A stretch of 64,000 bases of DNA from Pseudarthrobacter oxydans (lineage in GTDB: Bacteria > Actinomycetota > Actinomycetes > Actinomycetales > Micrococcaceae), in NCBI RefSeq assembly GCF_034258515.1, contig NZ_CP139438.1, forward strand, positions 868,001 through 932,000. The letters run 5' to 3'. Below, piece by piece: positions 42,241 to 61,809 of the stretch (positions are counted from its first letter, which is position 1; each line of letters begins with the position of its first letter). The position numbers and the translations under genes were made by a program. Below the pieces are notes generated by a model. That model was given only the letters and a program-made list of their open reading frames with translations, did not search any database and had not been told where the DNA came from.

Positions 42241-42263
42241 ATGTCAGTACAAACTTTCAAAGG
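42241..42263 (+). promoter_or_regulatory. Partial copy of the iol/ABC operator box before the tautomerase
   Basis: ATGTCAGTACAAA (42241-42253) is identical to the first 13 bases of the box upstream of iolC, but TTGACA is missing. It lies just before the ribosome-binding site. It may be a regulator site that links the tautomerase to the inositol operon. Confidence 0.55.
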
Positions 42264-42270
42264 AGAGAAA

Positions 42271-42675
42271 GTGCCACTCGTTCGTATCGATGTAAATCTG
42301 GGCCGCAGCCGGGAGGACCTGCAGCAGTTGAGCCGGGGAATCCACGACGCCATCCTTGCTGAATACGGCATCCCGGAGCGCGACTACTTCCACATCCTCA
42401 CCGAGCATCCCGCCGGGCAGATCTTTGCCCAGGATGCCGGACTCGGTTTTGAGCGGACAAGTGGTGTGGTGATGATCCAGATCTTCACCCAGGGCGGACG
42501 GTCGCAGGAGGCAAAGCAGCGCCTCTTTGCCGCCGTGGCGGACAAGCTCGCTGGGGTGGGGATCGCCGGCGAGGACGTGTTCATTGGCTACGTGGAGAAC
42601 ACCGCCGGCGACTGGTCCTTCGGCTTTGGCCGCGCCCAGTACGTTACCGGCGAGCTGGCTGTACCCCGGAAGTAG
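42271..42675 (+). CDS. Tautomerase family protein
   Basis: A 134-residue 4-oxalocrotonate-tautomerase-like protein. Reading from the GTG at 42271, the residue after the initiator is Pro (PLVRIDVNLG), the family's catalytic N-terminal base; AGGAGAG lies a few bases upstream. Conserved segments include RDYFHILTEHPAG and YVENTAGDWSFGFGRAQY. The frame is open upstream to 42154. It precedes the iol operon and carries a related operator box, so a role in isomerising a keto intermediate is conceivable but unproven. Confidence 0.83.
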   Translation: MPLVRIDVNLGRSREDLQQLSRGIHDAILAEYGIPERDYFHILTEHPAGQIFAQDAGLGFERTSGVVMIQIFTQGGRSQEAKQRLFAAVADKLAGVGIAGEDVFIGYVENTAGDWSFGFGRAQYVTGELAVPRK

Positions 42676-42752: not shown

Positions 42753-42780
42753 ATGTCAGTACAAACCTTTGACAGGACAT
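42753..42780 (+). promoter_or_regulatory. Promoter and operator box of the iol operon
   Basis: The 22-base box at 42753-42774 (ATGTCAG, T, ACAAA, CCT, TTGACA) ends in a consensus -35. It shares 18 of 22 bases with the box at 56466-56487 before the sugar ABC transporter. TTGACAGGACAT also matches the promoter at 55370. The -10 is weak (near 42793-42798). iolC starts at 42892. Confidence 0.65.
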
Positions 42781-42891
42781 TGATTCTAGGGCAAAGTAGT
42801 GGGTGTGACCCCGCTCATGGAGGGGCCAGCCAGGCACCGGAGCTCTAGCTGTTTGAGGTAAGAGTTCAAACTAGAAAGGTCCGCAAACACC

Positions 42892-43896
42892 GTGACCCAC
42901 GAACTGCTCACGATCGGGCGCATCAGCGTTGATATCTACCCGAACGACATTGGGGTGGACCTGGAGGACGTGACGTCCTTCGGCAAGTACCTCGGCGGAT
43001 CGCCGTCGAACGTTGCGGTAGCGGCCGCCCGGCATGGCCGCCGGACCGGGGTGATTACCCGTACCGGTGACGACGCTTTCGGCAAGTACCTCCACAGGGA
43101 ACTGAAGAAGTTCAACGTTGACGACGCCTTCGTCACCCCGGTCAGGGAATGGCCCACCGCGGTGACGTTCTGTGCGATCAAGCCGGCTACGGACGAGTTC
43201 CCGCTCTACTTTTACGGGCGTTTCCCTACCGCCCCGGATCTGCAGATCAAGGCCGAAGAGCTTGACCTGGACGCTATCCGCGACGCGCGGATCTTCTGGT
43301 CCACCGTGACCGGCCTGTGCCAGGAGCCCAGCCGAAGCGCGCACATTGCCGCTCATGAGGCCCGCCCGCGCGCCGGCCTCAAGGAAGGCCAGTTCACCAT
43401 CCTGGACCTGGACTATCGGCCCATGTTCTGGGCCTCCGAAGAGGAAGCCCGGGAACAGATCGGCCGGATCCTGCCGCACGTGACCGTGGCCATTGGCAAC
43501 GACAAGGAATGCGCGGTGGCCGTTGGGGAGGGGACGCCTGATGAGCAGGCTGACCGGCTGCTGGCAGCCGGTGTTGAGATTGCCGTCGTGAAGCTTGGCG
43601 CCGAGGGTGTGATGGCCAAGACCCGCACGGAGCGTGTTGTTTCTGCGCCGGTACCGGTGGAAACCGTCAACGGCCTGGGTGCCGGCGATTCCTTCGGCGG
43701 CGCCTTCTGCCACGGCCTGCTCTCGGGCTGGCCGCTTGCCCGGGTCCTGGATTATGCCAACGCCGCAGGTGCGATCGTCGCGTCCCGGCTTTCCTGCGCC
43801 GACGCGATGCCGACGCCGGAGGAGGTCACCTCGCTGCTTGCCGAACGCGGCCGCCTGGTTCCTGGTCAGTTTGCCACCGAAGGAGCAGCGCTGTGA
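42892..43896 (+). CDS. iolC: 5-dehydro-2-deoxygluconokinase
   Basis: A 334-residue PfkB-type kinase that phosphorylates 2-deoxy-5-keto-gluconate in myo-inositol catabolism. The N-terminal substrate motif YLGGSPSNVAVAAAR and the C-terminal ATP/catalytic motif GLGAGDSFGGAFCHG with catalytic Asp are present. GTG start, AGAAAGG upstream. First gene of the iol operon; its stop overlaps the next gene's GTG (GTGA, 43893-43896). Confidence 0.92.
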   Translation: MTHELLTIGRISVDIYPNDIGVDLEDVTSFGKYLGGSPSNVAVAAARHGRRTGVITRTGDDAFGKYLHRELKKFNVDDAFVTPVREWPTAVTFCAIKPATDEFPLYFYGRFPTAPDLQIKAEELDLDAIRDARIFWSTVTGLCQEPSRSAHIAAHEARPRAGLKEGQFTILDLDYRPMFWASEEEAREQIGRILPHVTVAIGNDKECAVAVGEGTPDEQADRLLAAGVEIAVVKLGAEGVMAKTRTERVVSAPVPVETVNGLGAGDSFGGAFCHGLLSGWPLARVLDYANAAGAIVASRLSCADAMPTPEEVTSLLAERGRLVPGQFATEGAAL

Positions 43897-44843
43897 CCCT
43901 CACCCCCCTCGCCTCGAACAATGCCCTGGACGACGACCCCCGCCGTTATGCCCACTTGAGCACCATCCGGCTTGAAGACCCGGACGCCATAGCCCGGGCC
44001 GCGAAGGCGCGGCGCCGCCACCCCGGCCTGAAATACGGCAAGCAGAACTTCATTGTGGCTGCGGACCACCCCGCGCGCGGCGCCCTCGCCGTCGGTTCGG
44101 ATCCCGTGGCCATGGCAGACCGCCGGCAGTTGCTGGACCGGCTGCAGATTGCGCTGGCCAACCCGGCCGTGGACGGTGTGCTTGCCTCGCCGGACATCAT
44201 GGACGACCTGCTCCTGCTGGGTGCGCTGGACGGAAAACTCGTTTTTGGCTCGATGAACCGCGGCGGGCTCGCGGGCCTGGTCAACGAATTCGATGACCGT
44301 TTCACCGGGCACACGGCTGCTGCCCTGGAAGCTCTTGGTGCCGATGGCGGCAAGATGCTGACGCGCATCTGCCTGGGGGACCCGGATACGGTCGTCACCC
44401 TCGAGGCAACGGCCAAGGCCATCGATTCGCTTGCCGAGCGTAAGCTGATCGCCATGGTGGAGCCGTTCCTGTCGGTCCGGGAAAACGGCCGCGTCCGGAA
44501 CGACCTCTCAACGGACGCCGTGATCAAGTCCATCGCCATCGCCGAGGGTCTGGGCTCCACCAGTGCCTACACGTGGATGAAGCTTCCCGTTGTTGCAAAC
44601 ATGGAACGGGTCATGGCAGCTACCACCATGCCCACCGTCCTGCTGGGCGGGGACCCGGACAGCAGCCAGGACGAGGTCTTCGCAAGCTGGCAGGCAGCCC
44701 TCGCGCTGCCCGGGGTGCAGGGTCTCACAGTGGGACGGACCCTCCTGTACCCGGCCGACGGCGATGTTTCCGGCGCCGTTGCCACCGCCGCCTCGCTGCT
44801 GAACCACACCACCCCAAACCGAACCGAAGAAGTATCGGAGTAG
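43893..44843 (+). CDS. Cgl0159-family (beta/alpha)8 aldolase-like enzyme
   Basis: A 316-residue TIM barrel like the Cgl0159 protein of corynebacterial iol clusters. Conserved parts are KYGKQNFIVAADHPARGALA, LLLLGALDGKLVFGSMNRGG, MVEPFLSVRENGRVRNDL and AYTWMKLPVVANMERVMAA, with a Lys near the end of a strand as expected for a class I aldolase. It probably cleaves the phosphorylated product of IolC to DHAP and malonate semialdehyde, in place of IolJ. It sits between iolC and iolD, where other actinobacteria also encode iolB. Confidence 0.78.
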   Translation: MTLTPLASNNALDDDPRRYAHLSTIRLEDPDAIARAAKARRRHPGLKYGKQNFIVAADHPARGALAVGSDPVAMADRRQLLDRLQIALANPAVDGVLASPDIMDDLLLLGALDGKLVFGSMNRGGLAGLVNEFDDRFTGHTAAALEALGADGGKMLTRICLGDPDTVVTLEATAKAIDSLAERKLIAMVEPFLSVRENGRVRNDLSTDAVIKSIAIAEGLGSTSAYTWMKLPVVANMERVMAATTMPTVLLGGDPDSSQDEVFASWQAALALPGVQGLTVGRTLLYPADGDVSGAVATAASLLNHTTPNRTEEVSE

Positions 44844-44850
44844 CCTCCCC

Positions 44851-46812
44851 ATGGGAACAACATCAGGAACTGCAACGCGCAGAATGACGGTCGCCCAGGC
44901 CGTGGTGGAATACCTTTCCAAGCAGTACACGGTGGACTCCGTTGGCGGCGTTGAGTACCGCGAGCGGCTGATTCCGGGGACCTTTGGCATCTTCGGGCAC
45001 GGGAACGTGGCCGGTGTGGGCCAGGCGCTGAAGCAGTACCAGCAGCTGGACCCGGCCATCATGCCCTACTACCAGGGCCGGAACGAGCAGGCCCAGGTGC
45101 ACCAGGCCGTGGGGTATGCCCGGCACACCCGCCGCCGACAGACCTTCGCGGTCAGCACCTCGATCGGTCCGGGTTCCTCGAACCTGCTGACCGGTGCCGC
45201 CCTGGCCACCACGAACCGGCTGCCGGTGCTGCTGCTGCCGTCCGACACGTTCGCCACCCGTGCCGCGGATCCGGTGCTGCAGCAGCTGGAGCAGCCTTAC
45301 GCGTACGACCTGACCGTGAACGATGCGTTCCGGCCGCTGTCCAAGTTCTTTGACCGGGTGACCCGGCCGGAGCAGCTGTTCTCCGCGTTCCACCACGGCC
45401 TGCGCGTCCTGACGGACCCGGCAGAGACCGGCGCGGTGACCATTTCGCTGCCGCAGGATGTCCAGGCCGAGGCGTTTGACGTGCCTGCGGAGTTCCTGGC
45501 CGAGCGGGAGTGGCGGATCCGCCGCCCGGACGCGGACGACGACGACATCGCCCGCGCCGCAGCGGCGATCCGTGCCGCGAAGCGCCCGCTGATCATCGCC
45601 GGCGGCGGCGTCCTGTACGCCTACGCCAACGACGAACTCGCGAAGCTCGTGGAGCTGACGGGCATCCCGGTGGGCAACACGCAGGCGGGCGTCGGCGTCC
45701 TGCCCTGGGACCACACGTTCTCCCTGGGGGCGATTGGTTCCACGGGGACGACGGCGGCGAACGCCATCGCTGCCGAGGCGGACCTGATCATCGGCATCGG
45801 CACCCGGTACGAGGACTTCACCACCGCGTCCCGCACGGCCTTCCAGAACCCGGACGTACGGTTCGTCAACATCAACGTCGCCCCGATCGACGCGTACAAG
45901 CACGGCACCACGCTGCCGATCGTGGCCGACGCCCGCAAGGCACTGGTGAAGCTCAACGCAGCTTTGGGTGGCTACCGGGTGGGTGCGGACCTGGAACAGA
46001 AAATCAAGGCTGAGAAGAAGCGCTGGGACGCCACCGTGGACGAGGCCTTCGACACGCGCTATACCCCGCTGCCGGCGCAGAACGAGATCATCGGCGCAAC
46101 CTCCCGGGCCATGGACGCGCAGGATGTTGTGATCTGTGCGGCCGGTTCCCTGCCCGGTGACCTGCACAAGATGTGGCGGGTCCGGGACCCGTTCGGCTAC
46201 CACGTGGAATACGCGTACTCCTGCATGGGCTACGAAATCCCGGGCGGCCTCGGCGTCAAGCGCGCGGCGCTGGCGGAAGCCGCCAAAGGCGGAACCCGGC
46301 GCGACGTCGTCGTCATGGTGGGGGACGGCTCCTACCTGATGATGCACACCGAACTGGTCACCGCCGTCGCCGAACGCATCAAACTGATCGTGGTGCTGAT
46401 CCAGAACCACGGCTACGCCTCCATCGGCTCGCTCTCCGAGATGCTCGGCTCACAGCGTTTCGGCACCCAGTACCGGGCCCTGGACGAAGAACAGCACAGC
46501 TTCGACGAAGGCGAGACCCTGCCCGTGGACCTGGCCCTGAACGCCGAGTCCCTGGGCGTGAAGGTCATCCGGATCGAACCGGGGGAGAAGGTCATCGCCG
46601 AACTCGAACAGGCCATCCGCGACGCCAAGGCCGCCCCGGAACGCGGCGGCCCCATCCTGATCCACGTCGAATCCGACCCGCTGCTGGACGCCCCGTCCTC
46701 CGAGTCCTGGTGGGACGTTCCCGTCTCCCAGGTATCAGAACTGGACTCGACGAAAGCGGCCTACCAGACCTACACCGACCACAAAGCCCGCCAGCGCAAA
46801 CTGCTCGGCTGA
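44851..46812 (+). CDS. iolD: 3D-(3,5/4)-trihydroxycyclohexane-1,2-dione acylhydrolase
   Basis: A 653-residue thiamine-diphosphate enzyme that opens the inositol ring. The ThDP/metal-binding motif is MVGDGSYLMMHTELV (G-D-G through N-x-x-x-x), followed by QNHGYASIGSLSEML; the central domain has LIIAGGGVLYAYAND. Full length. Its product, 5-deoxy-glucuronate, normally goes to IolB, which is not encoded here. It lies between the aldolase and iolA. Confidence 0.94.
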   Translation: MGTTSGTATRRMTVAQAVVEYLSKQYTVDSVGGVEYRERLIPGTFGIFGHGNVAGVGQALKQYQQLDPAIMPYYQGRNEQAQVHQAVGYARHTRRRQTFAVSTSIGPGSSNLLTGAALATTNRLPVLLLPSDTFATRAADPVLQQLEQPYAYDLTVNDAFRPLSKFFDRVTRPEQLFSAFHHGLRVLTDPAETGAVTISLPQDVQAEAFDVPAEFLAEREWRIRRPDADDDDIARAAAAIRAAKRPLIIAGGGVLYAYANDELAKLVELTGIPVGNTQAGVGVLPWDHTFSLGAIGSTGTTAANAIAAEADLIIGIGTRYEDFTTASRTAFQNPDVRFVNINVAPIDAYKHGTTLPIVADARKALVKLNAALGGYRVGADLEQKIKAEKKRWDATVDEAFDTRYTPLPAQNEIIGATSRAMDAQDVVICAAGSLPGDLHKMWRVRDPFGYHVEYAYSCMGYEIPGGLGVKRAALAEAAKGGTRRDVVVMVGDGSYLMMHTELVTAVAERIKLIVVLIQNHGYASIGSLSEMLGSQRFGTQYRALDEEQHSFDEGETLPVDLALNAESLGVKVIRIEPGEKVIAELEQAIRDAKAAPERGGPILIHVESDPLLDAPSSESWWDVPVSQVSELDSTKAAYQTYTDHKARQRKLLG

Positions 46813-46853
46813 CACTCCACCCCGGCACAGCCACAGACCAAGGAAGTCCACAC

Positions 46854-48362
46854 ATGTCAACGACGACCACCACTGTCATCAACCACTTCATCAACGGCGC
46901 CGAGACCGCCGGCGAGGGCGACCGCACCACCAACGTCTACAACCCGGCCACCGGCCAGGTCAGCGCAGAGCTGCGGCTGGCGAACCGGGCGGACCTAAAC
47001 GCCACCGTTGCGGCCGCCCGCAAGGCCGCCGATACCTGGGGCGACATCTCCCTGGCCAAGCGCACCGCCGTGCTGTTCAAGTTCCGCGAGCTCGTCGCCT
47101 CACACATCGATGAGCTCGCCCAGCTGATCACGGCCGAGCACGGCAAGGTCCTCTCCGACGCCAAGGGCGAGATCGGCCGCGGCCTGGAAGTCATCGAATA
47201 CGCGTGCGGCATCCCCACCCTGCTCAAGGGCGACTACTCGGACCAGGTGTCCACCGGCATCGACGTCTTCAACTTCCGCGAACCCCTTGGCGTGGTCGCC
47301 GGCATCACCCCGTTCAACTTCCCGGTGATGGTCCCGCTGTGGATGGCCCCGATGGCGATCGCCACCGGCAACGCGTTCATCCTCAAGCCCTCCGAACGCG
47401 ACCCCTCCGCCTCCATGCTCCTGGCCAAGCTCTGGAAGCAGGCCGGCCTGCCCGACGGCGTGTTCCAGGTCCTGCACGGCGACAAGGAAACCGTGGACGG
47501 GCTCCTGACCCACCCGGACGTGGACGGCATCTCCTTCGTCGGCTCCACCCCGATCGCCCAGTACGTCCACGAGACTGCCACCAAGCACGGCAAGCGCGTC
47601 CAGGCCCTGGGCGGGGCGAAGAACCACGCCATCGTCATGCCCGACGCCGACCTGGACAACGCCGCGGACCACCTCGCCGCCGCCGCGTTCGGCTCCGCCG
47701 GCGAACGCTGCATGGCCATCTCCGTCGCCGTCGCCGTCGCGGACGCAGCCGACCTGATCGTCAAGAAGGTCGAAGAACGCGCCCTGGCCGTGAAGGTCAA
47801 CAACGGCACCGAGCCCGACGCCGAAATGGGCCCGGTGATCACCCCCGCTTCCAAGGAACGCATCGTCCGGATCGTCACCGAAGCCGAACAGGCCGGCGCC
47901 GCCATGGTCGTTGACGGCCGCGACCTCGTGGTCCCCGGCCACGAGGACGGCTTCTGGGTGGGCCCCACCGTCATCGACCACGTCAGGACCGAAATGACCG
48001 CCTACACCGAGGAAATCTTCGGACCGGTCCTCGTCGTGGTCCGCGTTGACAGCCTCGAGGACGGCATCAACCTCATCAACGCCAACCCGTACGGCAACGG
48101 CACCGCCATCTTCACCTCCTCCGGCGCCGCAGCCCGCAAGTTCCAGCGCTCGGTGACCGTCGGCATGATCGGCATCAACGTGCCCCTGCCCGTTCCCGTG
48201 GCTTACCACTCCTTCGGCGGCTGGAAGGCATCCCTCTTTGGCGACAAGCACATCTACGGCCCCGAGGGCGTCTCCTTCTACACCCGCGGCAAAGTGGTCA
48301 CCTCACGCTGGCCCGAAACCCACCACGCCTCCGGCGCCTCCTACAACTTCCCGTCCAACTAG
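46854..48362 (+). CDS. iolA: Methylmalonate/malonate-semialdehyde dehydrogenase (CoA-acylating)
   Basis: A 502-residue aldehyde dehydrogenase. Catalytic Cys in GSAGERCMAISVAVAV, the cofactor region VAGITPFNFPVMVPLW, and FGGWKASLFGDKHIYGPEGV at the C terminus are typical of IolA/MmsA. It converts malonate semialdehyde, NAD+ and CoA to acetyl-CoA and CO2. The ATG at 46854 has AAGGA 9 bases upstream; the open frame runs back into iolD but that part is noise. Confidence 0.93.
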   Translation: MSTTTTTVINHFINGAETAGEGDRTTNVYNPATGQVSAELRLANRADLNATVAAARKAADTWGDISLAKRTAVLFKFRELVASHIDELAQLITAEHGKVLSDAKGEIGRGLEVIEYACGIPTLLKGDYSDQVSTGIDVFNFREPLGVVAGITPFNFPVMVPLWMAPMAIATGNAFILKPSERDPSASMLLAKLWKQAGLPDGVFQVLHGDKETVDGLLTHPDVDGISFVGSTPIAQYVHETATKHGKRVQALGGAKNHAIVMPDADLDNAADHLAAAAFGSAGERCMAISVAVAVADAADLIVKKVEERALAVKVNNGTEPDAEMGPVITPASKERIVRIVTEAEQAGAAMVVDGRDLVVPGHEDGFWVGPTVIDHVRTEMTAYTEEIFGPVLVVVRVDSLEDGINLINANPYGNGTAIFTSSGAAARKFQRSVTVGMIGINVPLPVPVAYHSFGGWKASLFGDKHIYGPEGVSFYTRGKVVTSRWPETHHASGASYNFPSN

Positions 48363-48382
48363 TCCCCACCCCGACAACCACC

Positions 48383-48442
48383 ATCGACTGCTCCGTACCC
48401 GCCGTTTTGAGCGTCCAAAAAGACACCTGCGGAGCAATCGAT
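48383..48442 (+). promoter_or_regulatory. Inverted repeat between iolA and iolE
   Basis: Arms 48383-48395 (ATCGA, C, TGCTCCG) and 48430-48442 (CGGAGCA, ATCGAT) pair except at one bulge, with a 34-base loop. It lies just before iolE's ribosome-binding site. Possibly a processing or stability element; no T-run to suggest termination. Confidence 0.4.
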
Positions 48443-48457
48443 GAGGAGGAACGCACA

Positions 48458-49369
48458 ATGACTGAGAACAAACTGATCATCGGCACGGCGCCGGACTCCT
48501 GGGGCGTCTGGTTCCCGGACGACCCCAAGCAGACGCCGTGGGAACGGTTCCTCGACGAGGTTGCCGAATCCGGCTACAAGTGGATCGAACTGGGCCCTTA
48601 CGGGTACCTTCCCACCGACCCCGCGCGGCTGGCCGAGGAGCTCAAGCAGCGCGACCTCAAGATCTCCGCCGGTACTGTGTTCACCGCTTTCCACCGCGGA
48701 CTGGACCAGTGGGAAACCGCGTGGGAGCCCGCCCGGAAGGTTGCCGAACTGACTGCAGCCATGGGCGGCGAGCACATCGTGGTCATCCCTGCCATGTGGC
48801 GCGACGACGTTACCGGCGAGGCAGTGGAAAGCGGCACCCTGAACGACAAGGCCTGGGGCGACCTCTTCGAGGGCCACAACCGCCTGGGCAAGACGCTCCT
48901 GGAGGACTTCGGCCTGAAGCAGCAGTTCCACTCCCACGCGGATTCCCACGTGGGAGCCCAGGAGGACATCGAAACCTTGCTGGCTGCGACTGACCCGAAG
49001 TATGTGAACCTTTGCCTGGATACGGGCCATGCCGAGTACTGCGGCGCATCAAGCCTGGAGCTCATCAAGAACTACCCGGACCGGATCGGCTACCTGCACC
49101 TGAAGCAGATCAACCCGGAGATCCTCAAGAAGGTCAACGAGGAAAACATGACCTGGGCTGCCGCCAACCTGGCAGGCGTTATGACCGAGCCGCCGAACGG
49201 CCTGCCCGACCTCCGCGCCGTAATCGAAGCGGTCGAGGGCCTCAACCGCCCCATCTTCGGCATCGTGGAGCAGGACATGTACCCGGTGGACTTCGACGTG
49301 CCCATGCCGATCGCCAAGCGCACCCGCAACTACCTGCTGTCCTGCGGTTCCCGAACCACCGTCAACTGA
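48458..49369 (+). CDS. iolE: Inosose dehydratase-like TIM barrel
   Basis: A 303-residue xylose-isomerase-like barrel. IolE-type features: N-terminal IIGTAPDSWGVWFPDDPKQT and EVAESGYKWIELGPYGYLP, metal ligands around LCLDTGHAEYCG and FHSHADSHVGA-like QQFHSHADSHVG. It dehydrates 2-keto-myo-inositol to the diketone used by IolD. GAGGAGG precedes the ATG at 48458; the frame extends to 48407. Sits between iolA and iolG. Confidence 0.83.
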   Translation: MTENKLIIGTAPDSWGVWFPDDPKQTPWERFLDEVAESGYKWIELGPYGYLPTDPARLAEELKQRDLKISAGTVFTAFHRGLDQWETAWEPARKVAELTAAMGGEHIVVIPAMWRDDVTGEAVESGTLNDKAWGDLFEGHNRLGKTLLEDFGLKQQFHSHADSHVGAQEDIETLLAATDPKYVNLCLDTGHAEYCGASSLELIKNYPDRIGYLHLKQINPEILKKVNEENMTWAAANLAGVMTEPPNGLPDLRAVIEAVEGLNRPIFGIVEQDMYPVDFDVPMPIAKRTRNYLLSCGSRTTVN

Positions 49370-49414
49370 CAACAAGACAGCCCGCATCCGTTACAGACAC
49401 AGAAGGACGAAACA

Positions 49415-50428
49415 ATGACTCAAAACCTCCGCGTCGCCGTCATCGGCGCCGGGCGCATGGGCGCCGACCACATCCAGCGGCTCAACACCCGCATCCACGG
49501 TGCCGAGGTTGCCGCCGTCGTCGACGTTGACCTGGCCCGTGCCCAGGCGGCCGTTGAAGGCATTCCGGGAGCCGTTGCCCTTGCTGACGCCGAGGAAGCG
49601 CTCAACAACGGCGACGTCAATGCAGTACTCATTGCCACCCCTGGTTTCCTGCACGAGGACATCCTGCTCAAGGCCGTTGCCAAGGACATCCCCATCCTTT
49701 GCGAGAAGCCGCTGACCCCGGATGCCGAGTCCTCCTGGAAGATCGTCCAGGCCGAGGTTGCACTGGGGCACAAGCGCATCCAGGTCGGCTTCATGCGCCG
49801 GTTCGACGCCGAATATGCAGCCCTTGGCCAGATCATCCGGAACCACGAACTGGGTGAACTGCTGATGCTGCACCACCAGCACCGCAACCCCACCACGCCG
49901 GCCGGCTTCACCAATGAGATGCTGATCAACGACTCCGTTGTGCACGAGTTCGACGCCATCAGGTACTTCACTGGCGAGGAGATCACCAGCGTCCAGGTCC
50001 GCCTGGGCAAGGCGACCAAGAACGCGCCCGCGGGCCAGCACGACCCCCAGCACGTCCTGCTCGAGACCGAGTCGGGTGTCCTGGCCGACGTCGAAATCTA
50101 CGTGAATGCCAAGTTCGGCTACGAAGTGGCCACCCAGGCTTCCTTCGAAGAGGGCATCGTCAGCATCGGAGGAGACAAGGGTCCCTACACCCGGAGCGCC
50201 GGCCACTGGGGCGGCAACGTCACCCCCGGCTTCGAGGAGCGTTTCGGTGCGGCATACGACGTCGAAATCCAGTCATGGGTGGACGCGGCACTTAAGGGCG
50301 AGATCGGCGGTCCCACGGCCTGGGACGGTTACGCCACCGCAGCCTGCTGTGAAGCAGGCGTCGAGGCGCAGAAGAACGGCGAAAAGGTGGCCGTGAAGCT
50401 TGCCCCCAAGCCGGACCTCTACAAGTAG
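49415..50428 (+). CDS. iolG: myo-inositol 2-dehydrogenase
   Basis: A 337-residue Gfo/Idh/MocA dehydrogenase. Rossmann motif VAVIGAGRMGADHIQRLNTR, the catalytic Lys in CEKPLT, IolG-like GFMRRFDAEYAALGQI, and the active-site His in NDSVVHEFDAIRYF. It oxidises inositol to 2-keto-myo-inositol (inosose), with NAD+ expected. AAGGA lies 8 bases before the ATG. First catabolic step, encoded next to iolE. Confidence 0.9.
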   Translation: MTQNLRVAVIGAGRMGADHIQRLNTRIHGAEVAAVVDVDLARAQAAVEGIPGAVALADAEEALNNGDVNAVLIATPGFLHEDILLKAVAKDIPILCEKPLTPDAESSWKIVQAEVALGHKRIQVGFMRRFDAEYAALGQIIRNHELGELLMLHHQHRNPTTPAGFTNEMLINDSVVHEFDAIRYFTGEEITSVQVRLGKATKNAPAGQHDPQHVLLETESGVLADVEIYVNAKFGYEVATQASFEEGIVSIGGDKGPYTRSAGHWGGNVTPGFEERFGAAYDVEIQSWVDAALKGEIGGPTAWDGYATAACCEAGVEAQKNGEKVAVKLAPKPDLYK

Positions 50429-50504
50429 GACAGAAAGGGGATGGAGCGATCCGTCCCCTTTTCCGTCTCCAACCCTTTACCGATCCACAACGGAGTGTTT
50501 TTTC

Positions 50505-51377
50505 GTGAAAATCGCACTTGACCCTACGCCCTTCCACCCCTCGCACAGCCTGCTCGAGTTCCCAAAGGTGGTTGCGGACCTCGGCTACAAGTACATGCAG
50601 ATGACCCCGCACGCGGACTTCATCCCCTTCTACAACCACCCCAAGGCCGATGACGAACTGGTGGGTCAGCTCAGCAAGGCCTGCCGGGACGCGGGGATTG
50701 AGATTGCGTCCGTGCTGCCGGTCCTCCGATGGTCAGGACCGGACGAGGATGCCCGCGAAGCAGCAGTCCGCTACTGGAAGCGGGTCATCCAGATCACGGT
50801 CGACCTCGGCGTCGGCACCATCAACACGGAGTTCAGCGGAAGGCCGGAGAAGGCCGAGGAGTCCGAGCGGGCCTTCTACCGTTCCATGGAGGAACTCCTG
50901 CCGATCATTGAACGCGAGGGCCTCGACCTGCTGATCGACCCGCACCCGGACGACTTTGTGGAGGAAGGCCTGGCAGCGATCCGGGTGATCAGGGGGCTGA
51001 ACTCAAAGAACGTAGGCCTGGTCTACGTCGCCTCGCACAGCTTCCACATGAAGAACGCTCCACTGGACATCATGCGGGCAGCGGGGGACAAGCTGCGGCT
51101 GGTCCATGTCGCCGACACCATGAACCACCACGCCTCGCACGGGCTTCGGTACATCACCAACCCGCCGGGCAATCCCGTCCGCGTGCACCAGCACCTGAAG
51201 ATCGGTGACGGCGACGTGAACTGGGATGAATTCTTCGGCGGACTCAAGGAAATCGGCTTCCTGGACCGGGATGACACTGTAATGGTCTCCAGCGTTTTTG
51301 CGGAGGACGAGAAGGCTGATGAGGTTTCCCGGTACCAGCTGGAGACGATGAAGGCCTACATCGCCAAGGCGAAGTAG
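50505..51377 (+). CDS. iolH: IolH-like TIM-barrel protein
   Basis: A 290-residue AP-endonuclease/xylose-isomerase-like barrel. Characteristic are [40 protein letters not shown] and [20 protein letters not shown], with metal ligands in the last motif and in [14 protein letters not shown]. IolH is common in iol operons but its exact reaction is not settled. GTG start with a CGGAGTG site. Its stop overlaps the GTG of the MFS gene. Confidence 0.85.
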
Positions 51378-52846
51378 TGGAAACGCGGATGGAACACAGC
51401 AAAGGAATCTTAACGGAGCCCGAAGCCCCGGACGCGGCTATCGGCGGAGGAGCACCTGCAAAGGCCTATCAATCCGATCCGAAAAAGTTCATGCGGAAGG
51501 TGGCGCTGTTCTCCACCTTCGGCGGCCTGCTTTTTGGCTACGACACCGGAGTCATCAACGGCGCCCTCCCATTCATGCAGCGCGACCTTGGCCTTACACC
51601 GCTGACCGAAGGACTCGTGACATCGACGCTCCTGTTCGGTGCAGCCTTTGGCGCCATCAGTGCCGGCCGTCTGTCTGACCGTTTCGGCAGACGCAGAACC
51701 ATCATGGGGCTGGCGCTGATCTTCGTCGTCGCCACCATCTTCTGCACCATCTCGCCCAGCACTGAACTACTGATAGCGGCCAGGACCCTGCTGGGGCTCG
51801 CCGTGGGCGGCGCGTCGGTAATCGTGCCCGTGTACCTTGCGGAGATGTCGCCGGCGGCCCAGCGTGGCCGCATCGTCACGCAGAACGAACTGATGATCGT
51901 CACAGGCCAGTTCATCGCCTTCACGTTCAATGCCGTCCTGGGCAACGCCTTCCCGGAAGAGGCCAACATTTGGCGATGGATGCTCGTGATCGCTACGTTG
52001 CCGGCTGTGGTGCTGTGGTTTGGGATGCTGGTCCTGCCGGAAAGCCCGCGCTGGCTGGCGTCTGCCGGCCGGTTCGGTGCTGTTCTGGAAGTATTGCGCT
52101 CCACCCGCGCTGCCGGGGACGTATCGGCGGAGTTCGACGAAGTGCGGCAGGCGGCCCGCGAGGACTACCAGGCCAGACTCGGAACGGTCAAGGACCTTAC
52201 CGTTCCCTGGATCCGCAGGATCTTCGTGGTGGGTCTCGGCATGGCGATCATTAACCAGATCAGCGGCGTCAACGCAATCATGTACTACGGAACGTCCATC
52301 CTGTCTTCATCAGGATTCGGCGACCAAGGCGCACTGATCGCAAACGTTCTCAACGGCATCACCTCCGTAGTGGCCGTCGTTATAGGCATGTACCTGATGT
52401 CGCGTGTGCCTCGCAAACCCATGCTAATTGTGGGACTTTGCGGCACGGCCACATCCCTGCTGGCCATCGCGATGATCTCTCTGGCCCTGCCGGAAAGCAC
52501 CCCTCGCGGCTACCTGGTATTGCTGTTCATGGTGACGTTCCTGGCCTCTATGCAGGGCTGCATCGGCACCGTGACCTGGCTGACCATGTCCGAGATCTTC
52601 CCGATGCATGTCCGCGGCGTCGCCATGGGAATCTGCGTTTTTGTCTTGTGGATGGTCAACTTCCTCATCGGCTTCTTCTTCCCGCAGATGGTTTCGTGGA
52701 TCGGAGTTTCGGCTACCTTCCTCATCTTCGTGGCACTGCAGATCTGCGCGATCGCGTGGGTCAAGCGGGTGGTACCGGAAACGAAGGACAAGTCGCTTGA
52801 GGAGCTCGAACACCTCTTCAAAGAGCGTTCCGGCATGAACGCCTAA
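51377..52846 (+). CDS. Sugar-porter MFS transporter (IolT-like)
   Basis: A 489-residue, 12-helix permease of the sugar-porter family: [35 protein letters not shown], the central sugar motif [12 protein letters not shown] and [12 protein letters not shown] at the C terminus. Proton-coupled uptake of inositol or a related polyol is expected from its position at the end of the iol operon. GTG at 51377 overlaps the iolH stop (TAGTG); an ATG at 51389 is an alternative. Confidence 0.88.
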
Positions 52847-52882
52847 TCCCCCCAACGCAAGGCACACTCCGTGCCAAAAGAA

Positions 52883-52910
52883 GCGCCCGACGCCGGCTGG
52901 CGTCGGGCGC
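52883..52910 (+). terminator. Terminator of the iol operon
   Basis: Perfect 12-bp stem GCGCCCGACGCC (52883-52894)/GGCGTCGGGCGC (52899-52910), GGCT loop, then CTTTC. It ends the operon that starts at iolC. Confidence 0.8.
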
Positions 52911-53010
52911 CTTTCATCTTTGGAAGCAGGCCAAAGCCAGGATATCGGCGACACGCCGCCGATTGTGGCCGACATTCAGGACAACCCCGCCGGGAGAGAC
53001 AGCAGAAAGA

Positions 53011-53050
53011 CAGCAGGAGGAGCGGCGCGTGTGCGCCACCCCTCCTGCTG
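53011..53050 (-). terminator. Terminator of the minus-strand oxidoreductase operon
   Basis: CAGCAGGAGG (53011-53020) pairs with CCTCCTGCTG (53041-53050), with an inner GGCGC/GCGCC stem. On the minus strand it follows the stop of the isomerase gene and is trailed by CTTTCT. Confidence 0.55.
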
Positions 53051-53068
53051 TGCGGGTTTGTTGTGCGA

Positions 53069-54088
53069 TCAGGCCGTCAGTTTCAACGAAGCCGAGAGCG
53101 TTGCGTCTGCGTCCAGGAGAACCTTGGCCGCAACTTCCAGCCCTTCGATTCGGCCCAGTTCGACATCTTCGTGTTCGATGTTGACGAGCATGTTCGGGTC
53201 CACTTTGTGGAGGGCGCGGAGGAACTCGGCCCAGTAGGCGGTGTCGTGCCCCTTGCCCAGCGCGACAAAGTCCCAAGCTGCAGGCCTGGGCCATTCGTTA
53301 GCCCACTCGTTGCCGCCGAGGTTCGTCCGGTGTTCTTCCGGGGAGAGCCGCCGGAACCGGTTGTCCAAGACACCGTAGAGTGCGGCGGTTTCTTTGTTGA
53401 TCCGTACATCCTTCGCCGCGGCCTGGAATACCAGCGGCCCCAATTCGCGGACAACGGTTATGGGGTCCATCTGCTGCCAGAACAGGTGGGAGGCGTCCAG
53501 TTCCACACCGATGTGTGTCGCTCCGGTCAGCTCCACGAGCTTATGCACGTCGGCCGGGTTGAAGACCAGGTTCTGCGGGTGCAGCTCCAGGGCAACCTTC
53601 ACACCGTACTCCCGGGCCAGTTGGTCTGTTTCCTTCCAGAATCTGGCAGCCACGCCCCACTGGTAGTCCAGAACGTCCAGGGCGGCTGAGTTCCAGGCGT
53701 TGACGATCCAGTTGGTGACGGTGGCGCCGGGCTCTCCGCCGGGCAACCCTGACATTGTGACCACCCGGTTCTGCCCAAGGCGGTGCGCGAGGCGAATGGA
53801 ACGGCGGATGTCTTCGGCATGCTTCTCGCCGATCTCGCGCTTGGGATGCAGGGGGTTGCCGTTGCAGTTCAGGCCGGCGATTGACACCCCGGTACCCTCG
53901 AAGATCGCCAGGAAGTCATCGCGGGCTGCGTCACTTTCCAGGATCTGGTCCATGGCGGGCACGTGGACCGCAGGCAGGAACCCGCCGGTGTTGATTTCGA
54001 TCCCGGTGAGGCCGAGGTCGGCGATGACCTTCAATGCCTCGGGAAGGGGCCGGTCATGCAGGATCGCGTTATAGACACCCAGTTTCAT
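53069..54088 (-). CDS. Sugar phosphate isomerase/epimerase-like TIM barrel
   Basis: A 339-residue xylose-isomerase-like barrel: MKLGVYNAILHDRPLPEALK, GLTGIEINTGGFLP, metal-binding VALELHPQNLVFNP and IGVELDASHLFWQQMDP, then KDVRINKETAALYG. Family members isomerise, epimerise or dehydrate sugars and inosose-like compounds. Its ATG overlaps the stop of the upstream oxidoreductase (ATGA, 54085-54088), so the two act as an operon. Substrate unknown. Confidence 0.85.
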   Translation of the reverse strand: MKLGVYNAILHDRPLPEALKVIADLGLTGIEINTGGFLPAVHVPAMDQILESDAARDDFLAIFEGTGVSIAGLNCNGNPLHPKREIGEKHAEDIRRSIRLAHRLGQNRVVTMSGLPGGEPGATVTNWIVNAWNSAALDVLDYQWGVAARFWKETDQLAREYGVKVALELHPQNLVFNPADVHKLVELTGATHIGVELDASHLFWQQMDPITVVRELGPLVFQAAAKDVRINKETAALYGVLDNRFRRLSPEEHRTNLGGNEWANEWPRPAAWDFVALGKGHDTAYWAEFLRALHKVDPNMLVNIEHEDVELGRIEGLEVAAKVLLDADATLSASLKLTA

Positions 54089-55263
54089 AGCGAAATCTTC
54101 TTTCCGTTGTTGAGGGCGGACTCGGTGACGGCGCCGAGCAGTTCCATGTTGCGGACGCCCTCGTCGAAGGTGGCACACCGGGGGAGGGACTCTGCTTCGC
54201 TGATGCCGGCAACCTCTTCGAGGAATGCCCGTGCCTGGTAGCCGAACGCATCGTTTTGACCGAAGCCCACTTCCGGGGCGTCCATGGCGAGGCCGCCGGC
54301 GATGTAGGGGTGGCCTGGGCCGAGGATGACCTGCCGGTAGCCGTTTTCGTTGCCGGAGTCGTCGTTGAGGAAGAGCTGGATCTCGGACGGCCGGCGCTGG
54401 TCGAACTTGGCGGCGCCGTTTTCGCAAAACACCTCGAACTGCAGGCTGTTGGCGTGGCCGGCGGCAACGCGGGAGACTTCGAAGCTTCCCGCGCCGACGG
54501 CAAACTCTGCGTTGAAGGCTGCGTAGTCGTCGTTCTCGACGGCTTCGAAGGTGTCGCTGACGGCCACGTGGTCATGGCCCATCACTGCGGCCAGCGGCAG
54601 CGGACGCTTGCCGATGACGGTGCTGAGCTGTCCGCCGGAGATGGATTGAATATCGCCGCAGAGGAACTCAGAGACGTAAGCCAGATGGGACCCGACGTCG
54701 GCAAGGGCACCTGAACCTGCGCCACCCTTGTACCGCCAGCTCATGGGGGCGAAGGGGCTGAAGCCATAGTCGGTCCAGTACCGGCCGCTGAAATGCAGGA
54801 CGTTGCCGAGAACCCCGTTCCGGATGAGGTTGCGAATGTAGGCGATGCCCGGTGTACGGCGGAAGGTGAAGCCAATGCGGGCGATGCTGGACGCATTTCG
54901 GGCGGCGTCGGCCATTGCGCGGGCATCGTCCATCGAATCACTCAGGGGCTTTTCGCACAGCACGTGCTTGCCGGCGGCCAGCAAACCCTCAACAACCTCG
55001 CGGTGGAGGGAATTGGCGATGACCACGCTGACCACGTCGATGTCATCGGCTTCAGCGATTGCCTGCCATGAGGTGTCGTTACGCTCGTACCCGAATCGGC
55101 GGGCGGCCAGGGAGCCGAATTCAGCATTGACGTCGCCGATGGAAACCAGGCGCACCGGAGGAAGCGTCGGGCTGTACAGGGCGGATGCCGTCCGGTACGC
55201 GGCAGCGTGCGCCTTGCCTGCCATGCCTGCGCCGATGACTGCTACACCGAGGCTTTCAGCCAT
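54085..55263 (-). CDS. Gfo/Idh/MocA oxidoreductase (LacI-controlled)
   Basis: A 392-residue NAD(P)-dependent dehydrogenase. Rossmann VAVIGAGMAGKAHAAAYRTA, catalytic Lys in LCEKPLSDSM, active-site region GGAGSGALADVGSHLAYVSE, and a C-terminal domain with SLQFEVFCENGAAKFDQRRP. AAAGGAG lies 7 bases before the ATG. Coupled to the downstream isomerase and preceded by a LacI-type operator. It differs from iolG in lacking the IolG C-terminal pattern, so another polyol or sugar is likely. Confidence 0.87.
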   Translation of the reverse strand: MAESLGVAVIGAGMAGKAHAAAYRTASALYSPTLPPVRLVSIGDVNAEFGSLAARRFGYERNDTSWQAIAEADDIDVVSVVIANSLHREVVEGLLAAGKHVLCEKPLSDSMDDARAMADAARNASSIARIGFTFRRTPGIAYIRNLIRNGVLGNVLHFSGRYWTDYGFSPFAPMSWRYKGGAGSGALADVGSHLAYVSEFLCGDIQSISGGQLSTVIGKRPLPLAAVMGHDHVAVSDTFEAVENDDYAAFNAEFAVGAGSFEVSRVAAGHANSLQFEVFCENGAAKFDQRRPSEIQLFLNDDSGNENGYRQVILGPGHPYIAGGLAMDAPEVGFGQNDAFGYQARAFLEEVAGISEAESLPRCATFDEGVRNMELLGAVTESALNNGKKISL

Positions 55264-55310
55264 TGATTTCTCCTTTGAAATTCAGCCGCAGCGGAATCGC
55301 CAGCGGCATT

Positions 55311-55324
55311 TTGTAGCGCTACAA
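55311..55324. promoter_or_regulatory. LacI-type operator
   Basis: TTGTAGCGCTACAA is a perfect 14-bp palindrome with the central CG typical of LacI-family sites, flanked by ATTT/TTTT. It lies in the gap between the divergent oxidoreductase and LacI genes, about 11 to 24 bases into the predicted oxidoreductase transcript. Confidence 0.75.
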
Positions 55325-55341
55325 TTTTTACGCTGACCTTG

Positions 55342-55370
55342 AGCGTATCCATGTCCATATGTCCTGTCAA
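55342..55370 (-). promoter_or_regulatory. Promoter of the oxidoreductase operon
   Basis: On the minus strand, -35 TTGACA (55370-55365) and -10 TACGCT (55347-55342) are 17 bp apart. TTGACAGGACAT is identical to the promoter start of the iol operon (42769-42780). The LacI-type operator lies just downstream, so repression by blocking elongation or initiation is expected. Confidence 0.65.
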
Positions 55371-55414
55371 TTGTTCGCCGGGATATTCTCAACCGAGAGA
55401 AGAAAGGCATTTCC

Positions 55415-56455
55415 ATGACGCATGATCGCCTGACAAACCGGCGCCCCACCATCTATGACGTGGCCAAGCATGCGGGAGTCTCGCCATCGCTGGTTTCGCT
55501 GGTGCTGCAGAATCCGGTGCGCGTTAGCGAGAAGCGCCGCAATGCAGTGCAGGCGGCGATCTCGGAACTTGGCTACCGTCCCAGCCGGGCAGCCACGACG
55601 CTAGCCAGCAGCCGGACAAAGAGCATAGGACTTGTCATAGATGACTACCGGAACCTTTGGTTTGTCGATCTGCTGCGGGGTATGGAATCCGTGCTGACGG
55701 AGGGTGGCTACCAGGTGATGCTGGCCGATTCCCGCCCTGGCGCAAACCGTATCAGCGAGGCTGTGGACGGACTGCTGGCCATGCACGTTGATGGCCTGGT
55801 CATTGCTGCCGAGCCCACTTTGTCCATGCTGACCGGTGCGGGGGTGCCCACTATCGTGGCAGGCTGGCGAAACGGCGTGCCTGAGGGCATGGACCTGGTA
55901 ACGAATGATGACGACGCCGGGGGCGCCATGGCCGCCGCCCACCTGTTGGACCTCGGACACACCAGGATCGGGCACCTGTCCGGGTCCGGTGGTGCCGCTG
56001 CCCACCGAAGGGCCGGCTTTACTGGGCATCTCCGGGAGGCTGGTGTCGAGGTTTGCGTCGTCGGGGAGGCGGGGGGCACGTCTGAAGAGGACGGTTACGA
56101 ATCGGCACGCTGGCTGCTGGAGCACCATCCGGACACGACTGCCATTTTTGCAGCAAACGACACCATGGCAGTGGGCGCCCTCGGGGCCATCAGGGTCCGC
56201 GGACTGTCGGTCCCGCATGAGATTTCCGTCATCGGATACGACAACTCACAACTGGCCAAGTCGCGGTACCTGGACATCACCTCCGTGGATAATCGCAGTG
56301 ATCTTGTGGGTATTGAGGTCGCGCGCCGTCTGCTGGCCAGGCTTGAGGATCCTGCCGCCGTACCTCAGCGGACCCTGATCGATCCTGCCCTGATGGTCCG
56401 CTCGACTACAGCCACTGCGCCGTCCTCAAGCGCCCAACCATCTTCTTTGAAGTAA
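55415..56455 (+). CDS. LacI-family transcriptional regulator
   Basis: A 346-residue repressor: N-terminal HTH TIYDVAKHAGVSPSLVSLVL with hinge YRPSRAATTLASSRT, and a periplasmic-binding-like effector domain (IGLVIDDYRNLWFVDLL, IFAANDTMAVGALGAIRVRG, ISVIGYDNSQLA). Divergent from the oxidoreductase operon across a perfect operator, and upstream of the ABC transporter. It probably senses a sugar or polyol substrate of that operon and may autoregulate. Confidence 0.9.
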   Translation: MTHDRLTNRRPTIYDVAKHAGVSPSLVSLVLQNPVRVSEKRRNAVQAAISELGYRPSRAATTLASSRTKSIGLVIDDYRNLWFVDLLRGMESVLTEGGYQVMLADSRPGANRISEAVDGLLAMHVDGLVIAAEPTLSMLTGAGVPTIVAGWRNGVPEGMDLVTNDDDAGGAMAAAHLLDLGHTRIGHLSGSGGAAAHRRAGFTGHLREAGVEVCVVGEAGGTSEEDGYESARWLLEHHPDTTAIFAANDTMAVGALGAIRVRGLSVPHEISVIGYDNSQLAKSRYLDITSVDNRSDLVGIEVARRLLARLEDPAAVPQRTLIDPALMVRSTTATAPSSSAQPSSLK

Positions 56456-56465
56456 AAACATACTA

Positions 56466-56511
56466 ATGTCAGGACAAAGTCTTGACATGGGTGATCCCGA
56501 TCACCCATGAT
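56466..56511 (+). promoter_or_regulatory. Promoter, shared box and palindromic operator of the sugar ABC operon
   Basis: The box at 56466-56487 (ATGTCAG, G, ACAAA, GTC, TTGACA) ends with a consensus -35 (56482-56487) and matches the iol operon box at 18 of 22 bases. CATGGGTGATC (56486-56496) and GATCACCCATG (56499-56509), separated by CC, form a perfect inverted repeat between the -35 and a likely -10 (CATGAT, 56506-56511), a classic repressor position. Confidence 0.7.
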
Positions 56512-56577: not shown

Positions 56578-57573
56578 GTGAAGAAGTTTTCCTGGCGGAA
56601 GGCGACCCTCGTGGCGGCCGTCGTTCCGATGCTGGCACTGAGCGCTTGCTCCAGCGGCGGAGGCAAGTCGGCAGACACTGCAAACTCCGGCTCATCGGGG
56701 CAGGTGGCAACCACCGCCCGCATCAAGGTGGCCCTGATCACCCATGCAGCAGCAGGCGACACCTTCTGGGACATCGTCCGCAAGGGGGCGGAGGAAGCAT
56801 CGGCTAAAGACAACGTTGAGCTCCTCTACACCAGCGATCCTGAAGCCGGTCGCCAGGCGCAGCTCGTCCAGCAGGCAATCGACCAGAAGGTCGATGGCAT
56901 CGCCGTCACCCTCGCCACCCCGGATGCCCTGAAGGACGTCCTGAAGAAGGCCACTGATGCCGGCATCCCGGTGGTGAGCCTCAATGCAGGCGAGAGCATC
57001 TCGTCACAGCTCGGCGCATTTACCCACTTCGGGTCCAACGAGAAACTCGCCGGCGAGGCCGTGGGGACCCGGTTGGCCGCCGAGGGCTTCAAGCACCCCG
57101 TATGCGTAATTCAGCAGCAGGGCCACGTTGGTCTGGAAGCACGCTGCGCAGGCGTCAAGGCCAAAGTTCCGGGAGCGGAGATACTGTACGTCGACGGCAA
57201 AGACATGACCGCAGTCCAGTCCACCGCCACCGCGAAGCTCCAGGCCGCCAAGGATGCCGACGTCATCATTGGCCTGGGCGCACCGATCACCCTGACGCTG
57301 CTCAAGTCCGTCGCGGATGCCGGCAGCTCTTCGAAGGTTGCCAGCTTCGACCTGAACGCAGATCTCGCGCAGAAGATCGTGGATGGTGCCGTGATCTTCA
57401 CCGTGGACCAGCAGCCGTGGCTCCAGGGCTACATGTCGATTGATTCCCTGTGGCAGGCAAAGCGCGGCGGCTTCAAGCTCGGCGGTGGACAGCCTGTCCT
57501 GACCGGCCCGACCATTGTCGATAAGTCGAACGCTTCAGACGTCCTCAAATTCGCCCAGCAGGGCGTCCGCTAG
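56578..57573 (+). CDS. Sugar/polyol ABC transporter substrate-binding lipoprotein
   Basis: A 331-residue lipoprotein: signal with lipobox LALSAC followed by a Ser/Gly-rich spacer, then a ribose/inositol-type binding fold (VALITHAAAGDTFWDIVRKG, GIAVTLATPDALKDVLKKA, HFGSNEKLAGEAVGTRLA, VIFTVDQQPWLQGYMSIDSL). GTG start with AAAGGAG upstream. First gene of a binding protein/permease/ATPase operon. The shared promoter box with the iol operon points to inositol or an inositol isomer as substrate. Confidence 0.9.
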   Translation: MKKFSWRKATLVAAVVPMLALSACSSGGGKSADTANSGSSGQVATTARIKVALITHAAAGDTFWDIVRKGAEEASAKDNVELLYTSDPEAGRQAQLVQQAIDQKVDGIAVTLATPDALKDVLKKATDAGIPVVSLNAGESISSQLGAFTHFGSNEKLAGEAVGTRLAAEGFKHPVCVIQQQGHVGLEARCAGVKAKVPGAEILYVDGKDMTAVQSTATAKLQAAKDADVIIGLGAPITLTLLKSVADAGSSSKVASFDLNADLAQKIVDGAVIFTVDQQPWLQGYMSIDSLWQAKRGGFKLGGGQPVLTGPTIVDKSNASDVLKFAQQGVR

Positions 57574-57582
57574 ATCCAGGAC

Positions 57583-57618
57583 TCAGGCCGTGCGGAGGGT
57601 ATCCGCCGCACGGCCTGA
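57583..57618 (+). terminator. Intercistronic hairpin between binding protein and permease
   Basis: Perfect 13-bp arms TCAGGCCGTGCGG (57583-57595) and CCGCACGGCCTGA (57606-57618) with a 10-base loop. There is no T-run, so it probably stabilises the upstream mRNA or stops only part of transcription, giving more binding protein than permease. Confidence 0.65.
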
Positions 57619-57637
57619 CCAACAAGGAGTTCTTCCA

Positions 57638-58705: not shown

Positions 58706-58717
58706 GGGGCGAAGGAA

Positions 58718-59653
58718 ATGAACGCCAAAGCAATCGACCAGCAGACCCTGCTCAAGAACGAAAAGGATCCGCTGACGCACACCCCTGTTCATTTGCTCTC
58801 CCTGGAAGGTGTAGGGAAGCACTACGGCAACATCATTGCCCTTCGTGACGTCACCATGGCCGTGGACAACGGCCGCGTCACGTGCGTTCTGGGAGACAAC
58901 GGCGCCGGTAAGTCCACGCTGATCAAGATCATCGCGGGCCTGCACCAGCACGACGAAGGCTCACTGTACGTCATGGGTGACGAACGGAAATTCAGTTCCC
59001 CTCGCGATGCCCTCGATGTCGGCATCGCGACGGTCTACCAGGACCTCGCGGTGGTTTCCCTGATGCCCATCTGGCGGAACTTCTTCCTCGGCTCGGAGCT
59101 CACCACCGGGTTCGGCCCGTTCAAGAGCCTCGATGTCCAGAAGATGAAGGACATCACCAAGAAAGAGCTCGCCGACATGGGCATCGACCTGCGCGATGTG
59201 GAGCAGCCCATCGGCCAGCTTTCGGGCGGCGAGCGCCAGTGTGTGGCCATTGCCCGGGCAGTGTACTTCGGAGCCAAGGTCCTGATCCTGGACGAGCCGA
59301 CGGCGGCCCTGGGCGTCAAGCAGTCGGGCGTAGTTTTGCGCTACATCCTCCAGGCGAGGGACCGGGGCCTCGGGGTCATCTTCATCACCCACAACCCGCA
59401 CCACGCCTTCCCCGTGGGCGACCGGTTCCTCCTGCTCAAGCGGGGCAAATCCATCGGCTACTACGACAAAAAGGACATCACGCTGGACGAGCTCACGGCC
59501 CAAATGGCTGGCGGCGCGGAACTTGCCGAACTTGCCCACGAGCTCGAACAGCTCGGCGGCCACGGCGACATCGTCAAGGAAGTCCAGGCCGAGGTTGCCG
59601 ACGTCACTGAAATCGCGGAATCTGCCAAGGAAAGCAGCCCGCGGCACGTGTAG
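58718..59653 (+). CDS. Sugar/polyol ABC transporter ATPase
   Basis: A 311-residue single-domain ATPase, unlike the duplicated RbsA type. Walker [14 protein letters not shown], signature [12 protein letters not shown], Walker [13 protein letters not shown] and H-loop [11 protein letters not shown] are present. The C terminus (about 265-311) is acidic and helical. Powers uptake with the permease 12 bp upstream. A weak hairpin follows. Confidence 0.92.
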
Positions 59654-61765: not shown

Positions 61766-61809
61766 CCCCCCGCTTAACCGTCTCTTCACACACCCGAAAG
61801 GATGAGCCC

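Follow-up and report, generated by a model that had tools for sequence, protein, structure and literature searches.

Within a 64,000-nucleotide stretch of the Pseudarthrobacter oxydans genome (contig NZ_CP139438.1, positions 868,001 to 932,000; hereafter the window), an inositol breakdown (iol) operon and a sugar ATP-binding cassette (ABC) transporter operon are each preceded by a closely similar 22-bp box, the first 13 bases of which recur before a tautomerase gene. An earlier note on this sequence had proposed that one regulator, encoded outside the window, controls all three, and that the transporter probably carries inositol. We asked which protein acts at the box, which other genes share the site, and what the transporter might carry. 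As judged from sequence comparisons, the box is very probably the operator of a GntR-family (HutC-type) regulator, IolR, encoded just past the window end. Feature coordinates are collected in Table 1.

A rare box made of an operator and a -35 hexamer

Exact matching bore out the note's description of the sites: the boxes are identical in 18 of 22 bases, both have TTGACA at the 3' end, and the 13-mer ATGTCAGTACAAA stands before the tautomerase gene at 42241-42253, ending 17 bases 5' of the GTG start. The notion of the box as one unit fared less well, since the sequence, exact as it is, consists of two parts at a fixed distance: a 13-bp operator and, after a 3-bp gap, a sigma-70 -35 hexamer. The operator has a palindromic core, WTGTCNNGACAW, of the form TGTC-NN-GACA; the core at the transporter reads TGTCAGGACA, and iolC and the tautomerase gene carry TGTCAGTACA, with one half altered.

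The box is rare. With up to 3 mismatches allowed, the 22-mer matches twice in the window, where 0.02 matches are expected, and two matches arose in 0 of 100 dinucleotide shuffles. Genome-wide counts were made by pattern searches allowing mismatches. Across the 4,440,103 bases of the genome, the same search returned just those two places (reversed-pattern control, 1), and not the many unrelated promoters that the earlier note had named as a refuting outcome. Allowing 1 mismatch, the 13-mer was found at 8 places (control, 3), and all 3 exact ones lie within the window. Three of the five one-mismatch copies fall inside predicted reading frames, and a fourth coincides with an apparent start codon; the fifth (C1:935666-935678) lies 3.7 kb beyond the window end, flanked by a GntR gene and a major facilitator superfamily (MFS) transporter gene. 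A looser form of the operator, WTGTCNNKACAWW, found 4 distinct sites in the genome (5 rows, one site being listed on both strands), three of them the iol sites and the fourth, at 71234, in front of a reading frame of LacI type; the control's 6 put this count at chance level. Among the literature matches listed, mostly openly accessible, none dealt with the box or with an inositol regulon in Arthrobacter relatives.

The perfect TTGACA at the end of both boxes and the nearly fixed spacing would also suit a conserved promoter sequence (UP-like or extended -35) of a strong sigma factor, acting without a pathway-specific regulator. Against this, the 13-mer has no -35 behind it at the tautomerase gene, and it is inverted at the inositol porter gene iolT. 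Because the genome holds the 22-mer at only two places, we rejected a general promoter element, and we regard this explanation as highly improbable.

A GntR/UTRA regulator linked to the box

The earlier note had offered GntR and LacI proteins as candidates, and a GntR/UTRA gene 2.7 kb beyond the window end fits the first of these. Its product, IolR, contains GntR and UTRA domains only (Pfam PF00392, 56.4 bits; PF07702, 115.7 bits); Pfam found in it no DeoR domains, such as mark IolR of Bacillus subtilis, a DeoR-family protein. The full-length sequence matches 2ra5 (233 bits) and, at about 100 and 94 bits, DasR and YvoA; the predicted structure was poor (mean predicted local distance difference test score, 54.8) and was not used. 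iolB follows the gene, and on the other side lies a divergently transcribed MFS sugar porter gene, iolT, whose promoter holds the operator in inverted form, ATGTACTGACAT. Where iolT adjoins iolR, 11 distinct upstream regions of iolT were compared: TGTNCTGACA is present in 10 and TGTAAGGACA in 1.

Box and regulator also travel together. In a set of 150 genomes of the genus (box, 22-mer with up to 2 mismatches; transporter binding protein, E up to 1e-100), the box is present in 135 and IolR in 137; 134 have both, 3 IolR only, 1 the box only (a genome 68% complete), and 12 neither. The binding protein was found in 112, and 101 of these have at least two boxes, as do 0 of the 38 without it; for IolR-positive genomes alone the figures are 101 of 112 and 0 of 25. 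The genomes are related, and Fisher values for these co-occurrences are not independent-event probabilities. In at least 17 genomes (G005, G008, G032, G036, G039, G047, G049, G050, G066, G085, G096, G097, G103, G110, G112, G118 and G146) iolR is divergent from the binding-protein gene, with the box between the two.

To avoid the partial circularity of our earlier counts (47/47 for iolC and 58/59 for the binding protein), which came from loci mostly selected by the box, we replaced them with loci fetched by homology. Among 30 loci chosen solely by iolC homology (the best 30 of 134 genomes with an iolC match, among the 150), the operator precedes iolC in all 30, with a spacing to the -35 of 3 bp in 29 and 2 bp in 1. 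Among loci fetched by IolR homology alone, all 35 distinct upstream regions of the binding-protein gene have it, exactly 3 bp before TTGAC. Tautomerase upstream regions, fetched by iolC homology, carry a relaxed operator in 26 of 26 cases and the strict form TGTCNNNACA in 24; the strict form is present in 31 of 40 among mostly box-selected loci. The tautomerase gene thus carries a putative IolR operator in relatives as well.

The linkage extends beyond the genus. At family level the box is present in 95 of 295 genomes and 15 of 32 genera. Among 57 box matches in as many loci (the top match listed for each genome; 30 from the genus search and 27 from the family search), iolC, the binding-protein gene or iolT lies downstream in 56. 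Extra boxes were followed in 14 loci of other genomes: 8 before iolT, 4 before the binding-protein gene (2 of these before iolC too), 1 at a contig end, and 1 (L304) inside a predicted frame with no iol gene downstream. In a locus from another genus (L244), the core stands inverted, as ATGTCCTGACAAA, in front of the gene for a binding protein with 70% identity. At class level, IolR relatives (E up to 1e-40) occur in 125 of 394 genomes and 44 of 137 genera. The palindrome TGTCNNGACA lies within 200 bp upstream of 26 of 67 distant iolR genes, against about 1 expected, an expectation drawn from the same loci, upstream regions included, and if anything too high; 11 permuted palindromes were found in 0 to 2 of the same 67 regions. 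Throughout the class, the operator is thus found again in front of iolR relatives, and 25 of 40 distant iolR loci hold an iolC, iolJ, iolB or iolD relative. This comparative evidence supports the proposal of a single regulator, encoded outside the window, for the tautomerase gene, the iol operon and the transporter.

Two further observations concern the distribution of sites. In two loci (L292:3294-3314 and L300:4048-4068) the exact 13-mer ATGTCAGGACAAA occurs without a -35 before a gene, next to iolT, for a dehydrogenase related to that at 60737-61765 of the window. Ten genomes (G002, G029, G048, G055, G073, G129, G130, G138, G141 and G146) have the binding protein and a single box; because the binding-protein gene is far from the boxed iolC promoter in G002 and G055, copies so placed may be under other control.

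The neighbouring LacI gene

LacI proteins often control sugar operons, and in this genome a LacI-family gene ends 10 bp before the transporter box, in the place where iolR adjoins the transporter in at least 17 relatives. This protein could be proposed as the shared regulator, as the earlier note had allowed. However, the intergenic region between the LacI gene and the divergent dehydrogenase gene has a different palindrome, TTGTAGCGCTACAA, which is exact in 10 of 14 loci and replaced by TTGTAGCGCTCCAA in the remaining 4, and which is probably the operator of the neighbouring LacI protein. Moreover, the box is kept where iolR, not the LacI gene, is next to the transporter, and it stands before iolC and iolT too. 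LacI as shared regulator was rejected on the strength of its own conserved palindrome, and we give it very little credence.

Proposed mechanism and points that weigh against it

We infer that IolR binds these sites, represses the genes behind them and responds to inositol. An IolR dimer would bind the palindromic core 3 bp 5' of the -35 at the iolC and transporter promoters, and would also occupy a site at the start of the tautomerase gene and an element containing the -35, the latter as a second site at iolC and at the divergent dehydrogenase operon. With inositol absent, bound IolR would hinder RNA polymerase; inositol or a breakdown product would release it, so that the iol pathway would be induced along with the uptake systems and the dehydrogenases.

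Several observations count against assigning the box to a repressing IolR. Three of the 137 IolR genomes lack the 22-mer: one (G090) keeps the operator at a 2-bp spacing and another (G119) is 63% complete with no iolC seen, but the third (G018), with iolC and a diverged IolR (74%), is an unexplained exception. Fewer than two boxes are present in 11 of the 112 genomes with the binding protein. Loss of IolR and the box often goes with loss of the iol cluster, and their co-occurrence alone therefore cannot single out IolR. Of the distant loci, 15 of 40 have no iolC, iolJ, iolB or iolD relative in 10.7 kb, and the strict palindrome is absent from 41 of the 67 upstream regions. The consensus for IolR of Corynebacterium glutamicum is reportedly KGWCHTRACA, and TGTCAGTACA, at iolC and the tautomerase gene, misfits it at one position. 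Finally, the near-rigid spacing (35/35 and 29/30) exceeds the needs of a simple repressor.

This last point leaves room for activation. IolR might contact RNA polymerase and activate transcription with inositol at the promoters with a 3-bp gap (iolC, the transporter and, elsewhere, iolT), and repress where its site covers the promoter start. We consider such a dual role quite unlikely. If it were true, the combination with a CRP-like dyad in the spacer of the transporter promoter would make a gate for inositol and carbon status, unlike the simple repressor of Corynebacterium.

The transporter and its likely cargo

Evidence on the cargo that is independent of the box comes from the binding protein, which is 47-48% identical to PDB 4ru1, the inositol-binding protein ACEI_1806 of Acidothermus cellulolyticus; the protein therefore has the relation to a solved inositol-binding protein by which a CUT2 inositol transporter may be recognized. 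The 4ru1 system has been termed, in print, a verified myo-inositol transporter. Identities of the binding protein among relatives are about 67-93%. The Acidothermus protein binds inositol, and by likeness the window's protein probably does so too, which strengthens the earlier suggestion that the transporter carries inositol.

IolR might instead control the box while the transporter carries another sugar (for example levoglucosan, L-glucose or a rhizopine-like compound), with the inositol genes under the same control because of a later step in common. Of solved proteins, those closest to the dehydrogenase at 54085-55263 are levoglucosan dehydrogenase (6a3f, 218 bits) and a scyllo-inositol dehydrogenase that also has activity as an L-glucose dehydrogenase (5ya8, 183 bits), and Paenarthrobacter has been reported to grow on levoglucosan (PMC10066097). 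The same dehydrogenase scores 251.6 bits against the levoglucosan dehydrogenase model NF052479, below the cut-off of 650, and the binding protein matches the rhizopine model NF052284 at 169.5 bits, below the cut-off of 420. We consider a cargo other than inositol unlikely.

The spacer of the transporter promoter holds a CRP-like dyad, and the motif GTG-N5-8-TCAC is present in 57 of 58 anchored transporter promoters. The genome encodes 6 CRP-type helix-turn-helix matches over the cut-off, 2 of them strong, and a CRP-type protein may bind at the dyad.

Further elements of the predicted regulon

The iolC promoter and the divergent dehydrogenase operon have another element in common, TTGACAGGACAT, which contains the -35. 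Its form WTTGACAGGACAW is exact at two places in the genome, the iolC promoter and 55359-55371 on the minus strand; 9 more are found at one mismatch, and the control gave 7 in all. A relaxed form of TTTGACAGGACAT is present in 29 of the 30 iolC promoters fetched by homology, and TTGACAGGACA in 14 of 14 distinct upstream regions of the dehydrogenase operon. The consensus scan called no promoter meeting its rule at iolC or the tautomerase gene. The iol genes probably form a single transcript; the iolE-like and iolG-like genes score below their curated cut-offs in the NCBIfam and Pfam scans.

Upstream of iolR itself, ATGTTCGCTTGATAGGACATA (L011:5543-5563) shows few changes in most genus relatives among the matches listed, and its sequence suggests a degenerate operator and autoregulation of iolR. 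Within the genus only this degenerate, conserved form is found at iolR; the palindrome is present in the 26 distant upstream regions described above.

In the iolT promoter, the palindrome TTAGAGCGCTCTAA (L011:5684-5701) lies just 3' of the -35. It is perfect in 11 of 11 iolT upstream regions and is found in the 8 iolT loci with an extra box too. Because this perfect palindrome follows the IolR operator, a second, LacI-type input at iolT is probable. A LacI gene adjoins iolT in several relatives. In C. glutamicum, the LacI-type regulator IpsA responds to myo-inositol (PMC3899939).

Table 1. Predicted sites and genes of the inositol locus (window positions, unless the contig is named)
Feature	Position	Strand	Evidence or remark
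IolR operator (predicted) before tautomerase gene, TTTGTTAGT-ATGTCAGTACAAA	42232..42253	+	exact 13-mer
Tautomerase gene	42271..42675	+	Pfam scan, PF14552 (Tautomerase_2) / PF01361
Box at iolC promoter, ATGTCAGTACAAACCTTTGACA	42753-42774	+	
IolR operator 1 of iolC operon (predicted)	42753..42765	+	operator in 30/30 iolC upstream regions
Second operator-like element, TTTGACAGGACAT	42768..42780	+	-35 (42769-42774) inside
iol operon: iolC, Cgl0159-like, iolD, iolA, iolE-like, iolG-like, TIM-barrel isomerase-like, MFS sugar porter	42892..52846	+	NCBIfam and Pfam
TIM-barrel isomerase-like gene, 3' of divergent dehydrogenase	53069..54088	-	PF01261
Gfo/Idh/MocA dehydrogenase	54085..55263	-	nearest solved: levoglucosan dehydrogenase, scyllo-inositol dehydrogenase
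Palindrome TTGTAGCGCTACAA, likely LacI operator	55311..55324	.	inverted repeat
Second-type element ATTGACAGGACAT, holding -35 of dehydrogenase/TIM-barrel operon	55359..55371	-	exact, one of 2 in genome
LacI-family regulator	55415..56455	+	NCBIfam LacI/RbsR-like matches, all below cut-offs
Box at transporter promoter, ATGTCAGGACAAAGTCTTGACA	56466-56487	+	
IolR operator of ABC transporter operon (predicted)	56466..56478	+	exact match
Sigma-70-like promoter of transporter operon, TTGACA-18-CATGAT	56482..56511	+	consensus scan, 10/12
CRP-like dyad, perfect 11-nt arms, between -35 and -10	56486..56509	.	contains GTGATCCCGATCAC at 56491-56504 (CRP/GlxR-like)
Sugar-binding protein of ABC transporter	56578..57573	+	
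ABC permease and ATPase genes	57515..59653	+	NCBIfam
Three Gfo/Idh/MocA dehydrogenases (two IolG-like) and hydroxypyruvate-isomerase-like TIM barrel	59742..63686	+	
IolR (GntR/UTRA) gene	contig 934732-935469 (would-be window 66732-67469)		2.7 kb past window end

Comparison with known inositol regulons

For a large group of actinobacteria living in soil, these predictions give inositol use a likely regulator, with its operator and regulon, and they assign a likely cargo to a previously unnamed ABC transporter. They also draw the tautomerase gene and the dehydrogenase/isomerase operon into the inositol regulon, so that the functions of both become testable.

IolR shares with DasR and YvoA, of the HutC subfamily of GntR regulators, a full-length sequence match across the GntR and UTRA domains, weaker than that with 2ra5. 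DasR and YvoA sites share the GTC-NN-GAC geometry seen here, and their pathway differs. The IolR proteins of Bacillus subtilis and Sinorhizobium meliloti (RpiR-like) have the same name and role over iol genes (PMC9603128) and belong to other protein families.

The closest counterpart is C. glutamicum, where a GntR-type IolR represses iolT1 and the iol genes; myo-inositol lifts this repression of uptake and breakdown (PMC8634428, PMC9603128, PMC12298647). The two systems have in common a GntR-type regulator with an inositol transporter and breakdown genes as targets, and three features of the C. glutamicum type of regulon were found here: GntR and UTRA domains, linkage to iol genes, and an operator at iol and transporter promoters. 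Read on the other strand, TGTCAGGACA becomes TGTCCTGACA, which fits the reported KGWCHTRACA, and TGTCAGTACA does not; on either strand, this consensus occurs in 39 of the 67 distant iolR upstream regions against 1.5 expected. The likeness to C. glutamicum is one of regulator family and targets. The differences lie in the reach of the regulon: in P. oxydans sites are also found at a CUT2-type ABC transporter, at a tautomerase gene and at a second dehydrogenase operon, and the transporter promoter has a CRP-like dyad. On this comparative sequence evidence, the predicted regulon belongs to a known kind and is a conserved example of it, larger than that of C. glutamicum. It adds two things: the second shared element, through which the divergent dehydrogenase operon joins, and the CRP-like site at the promoter of the transporter.

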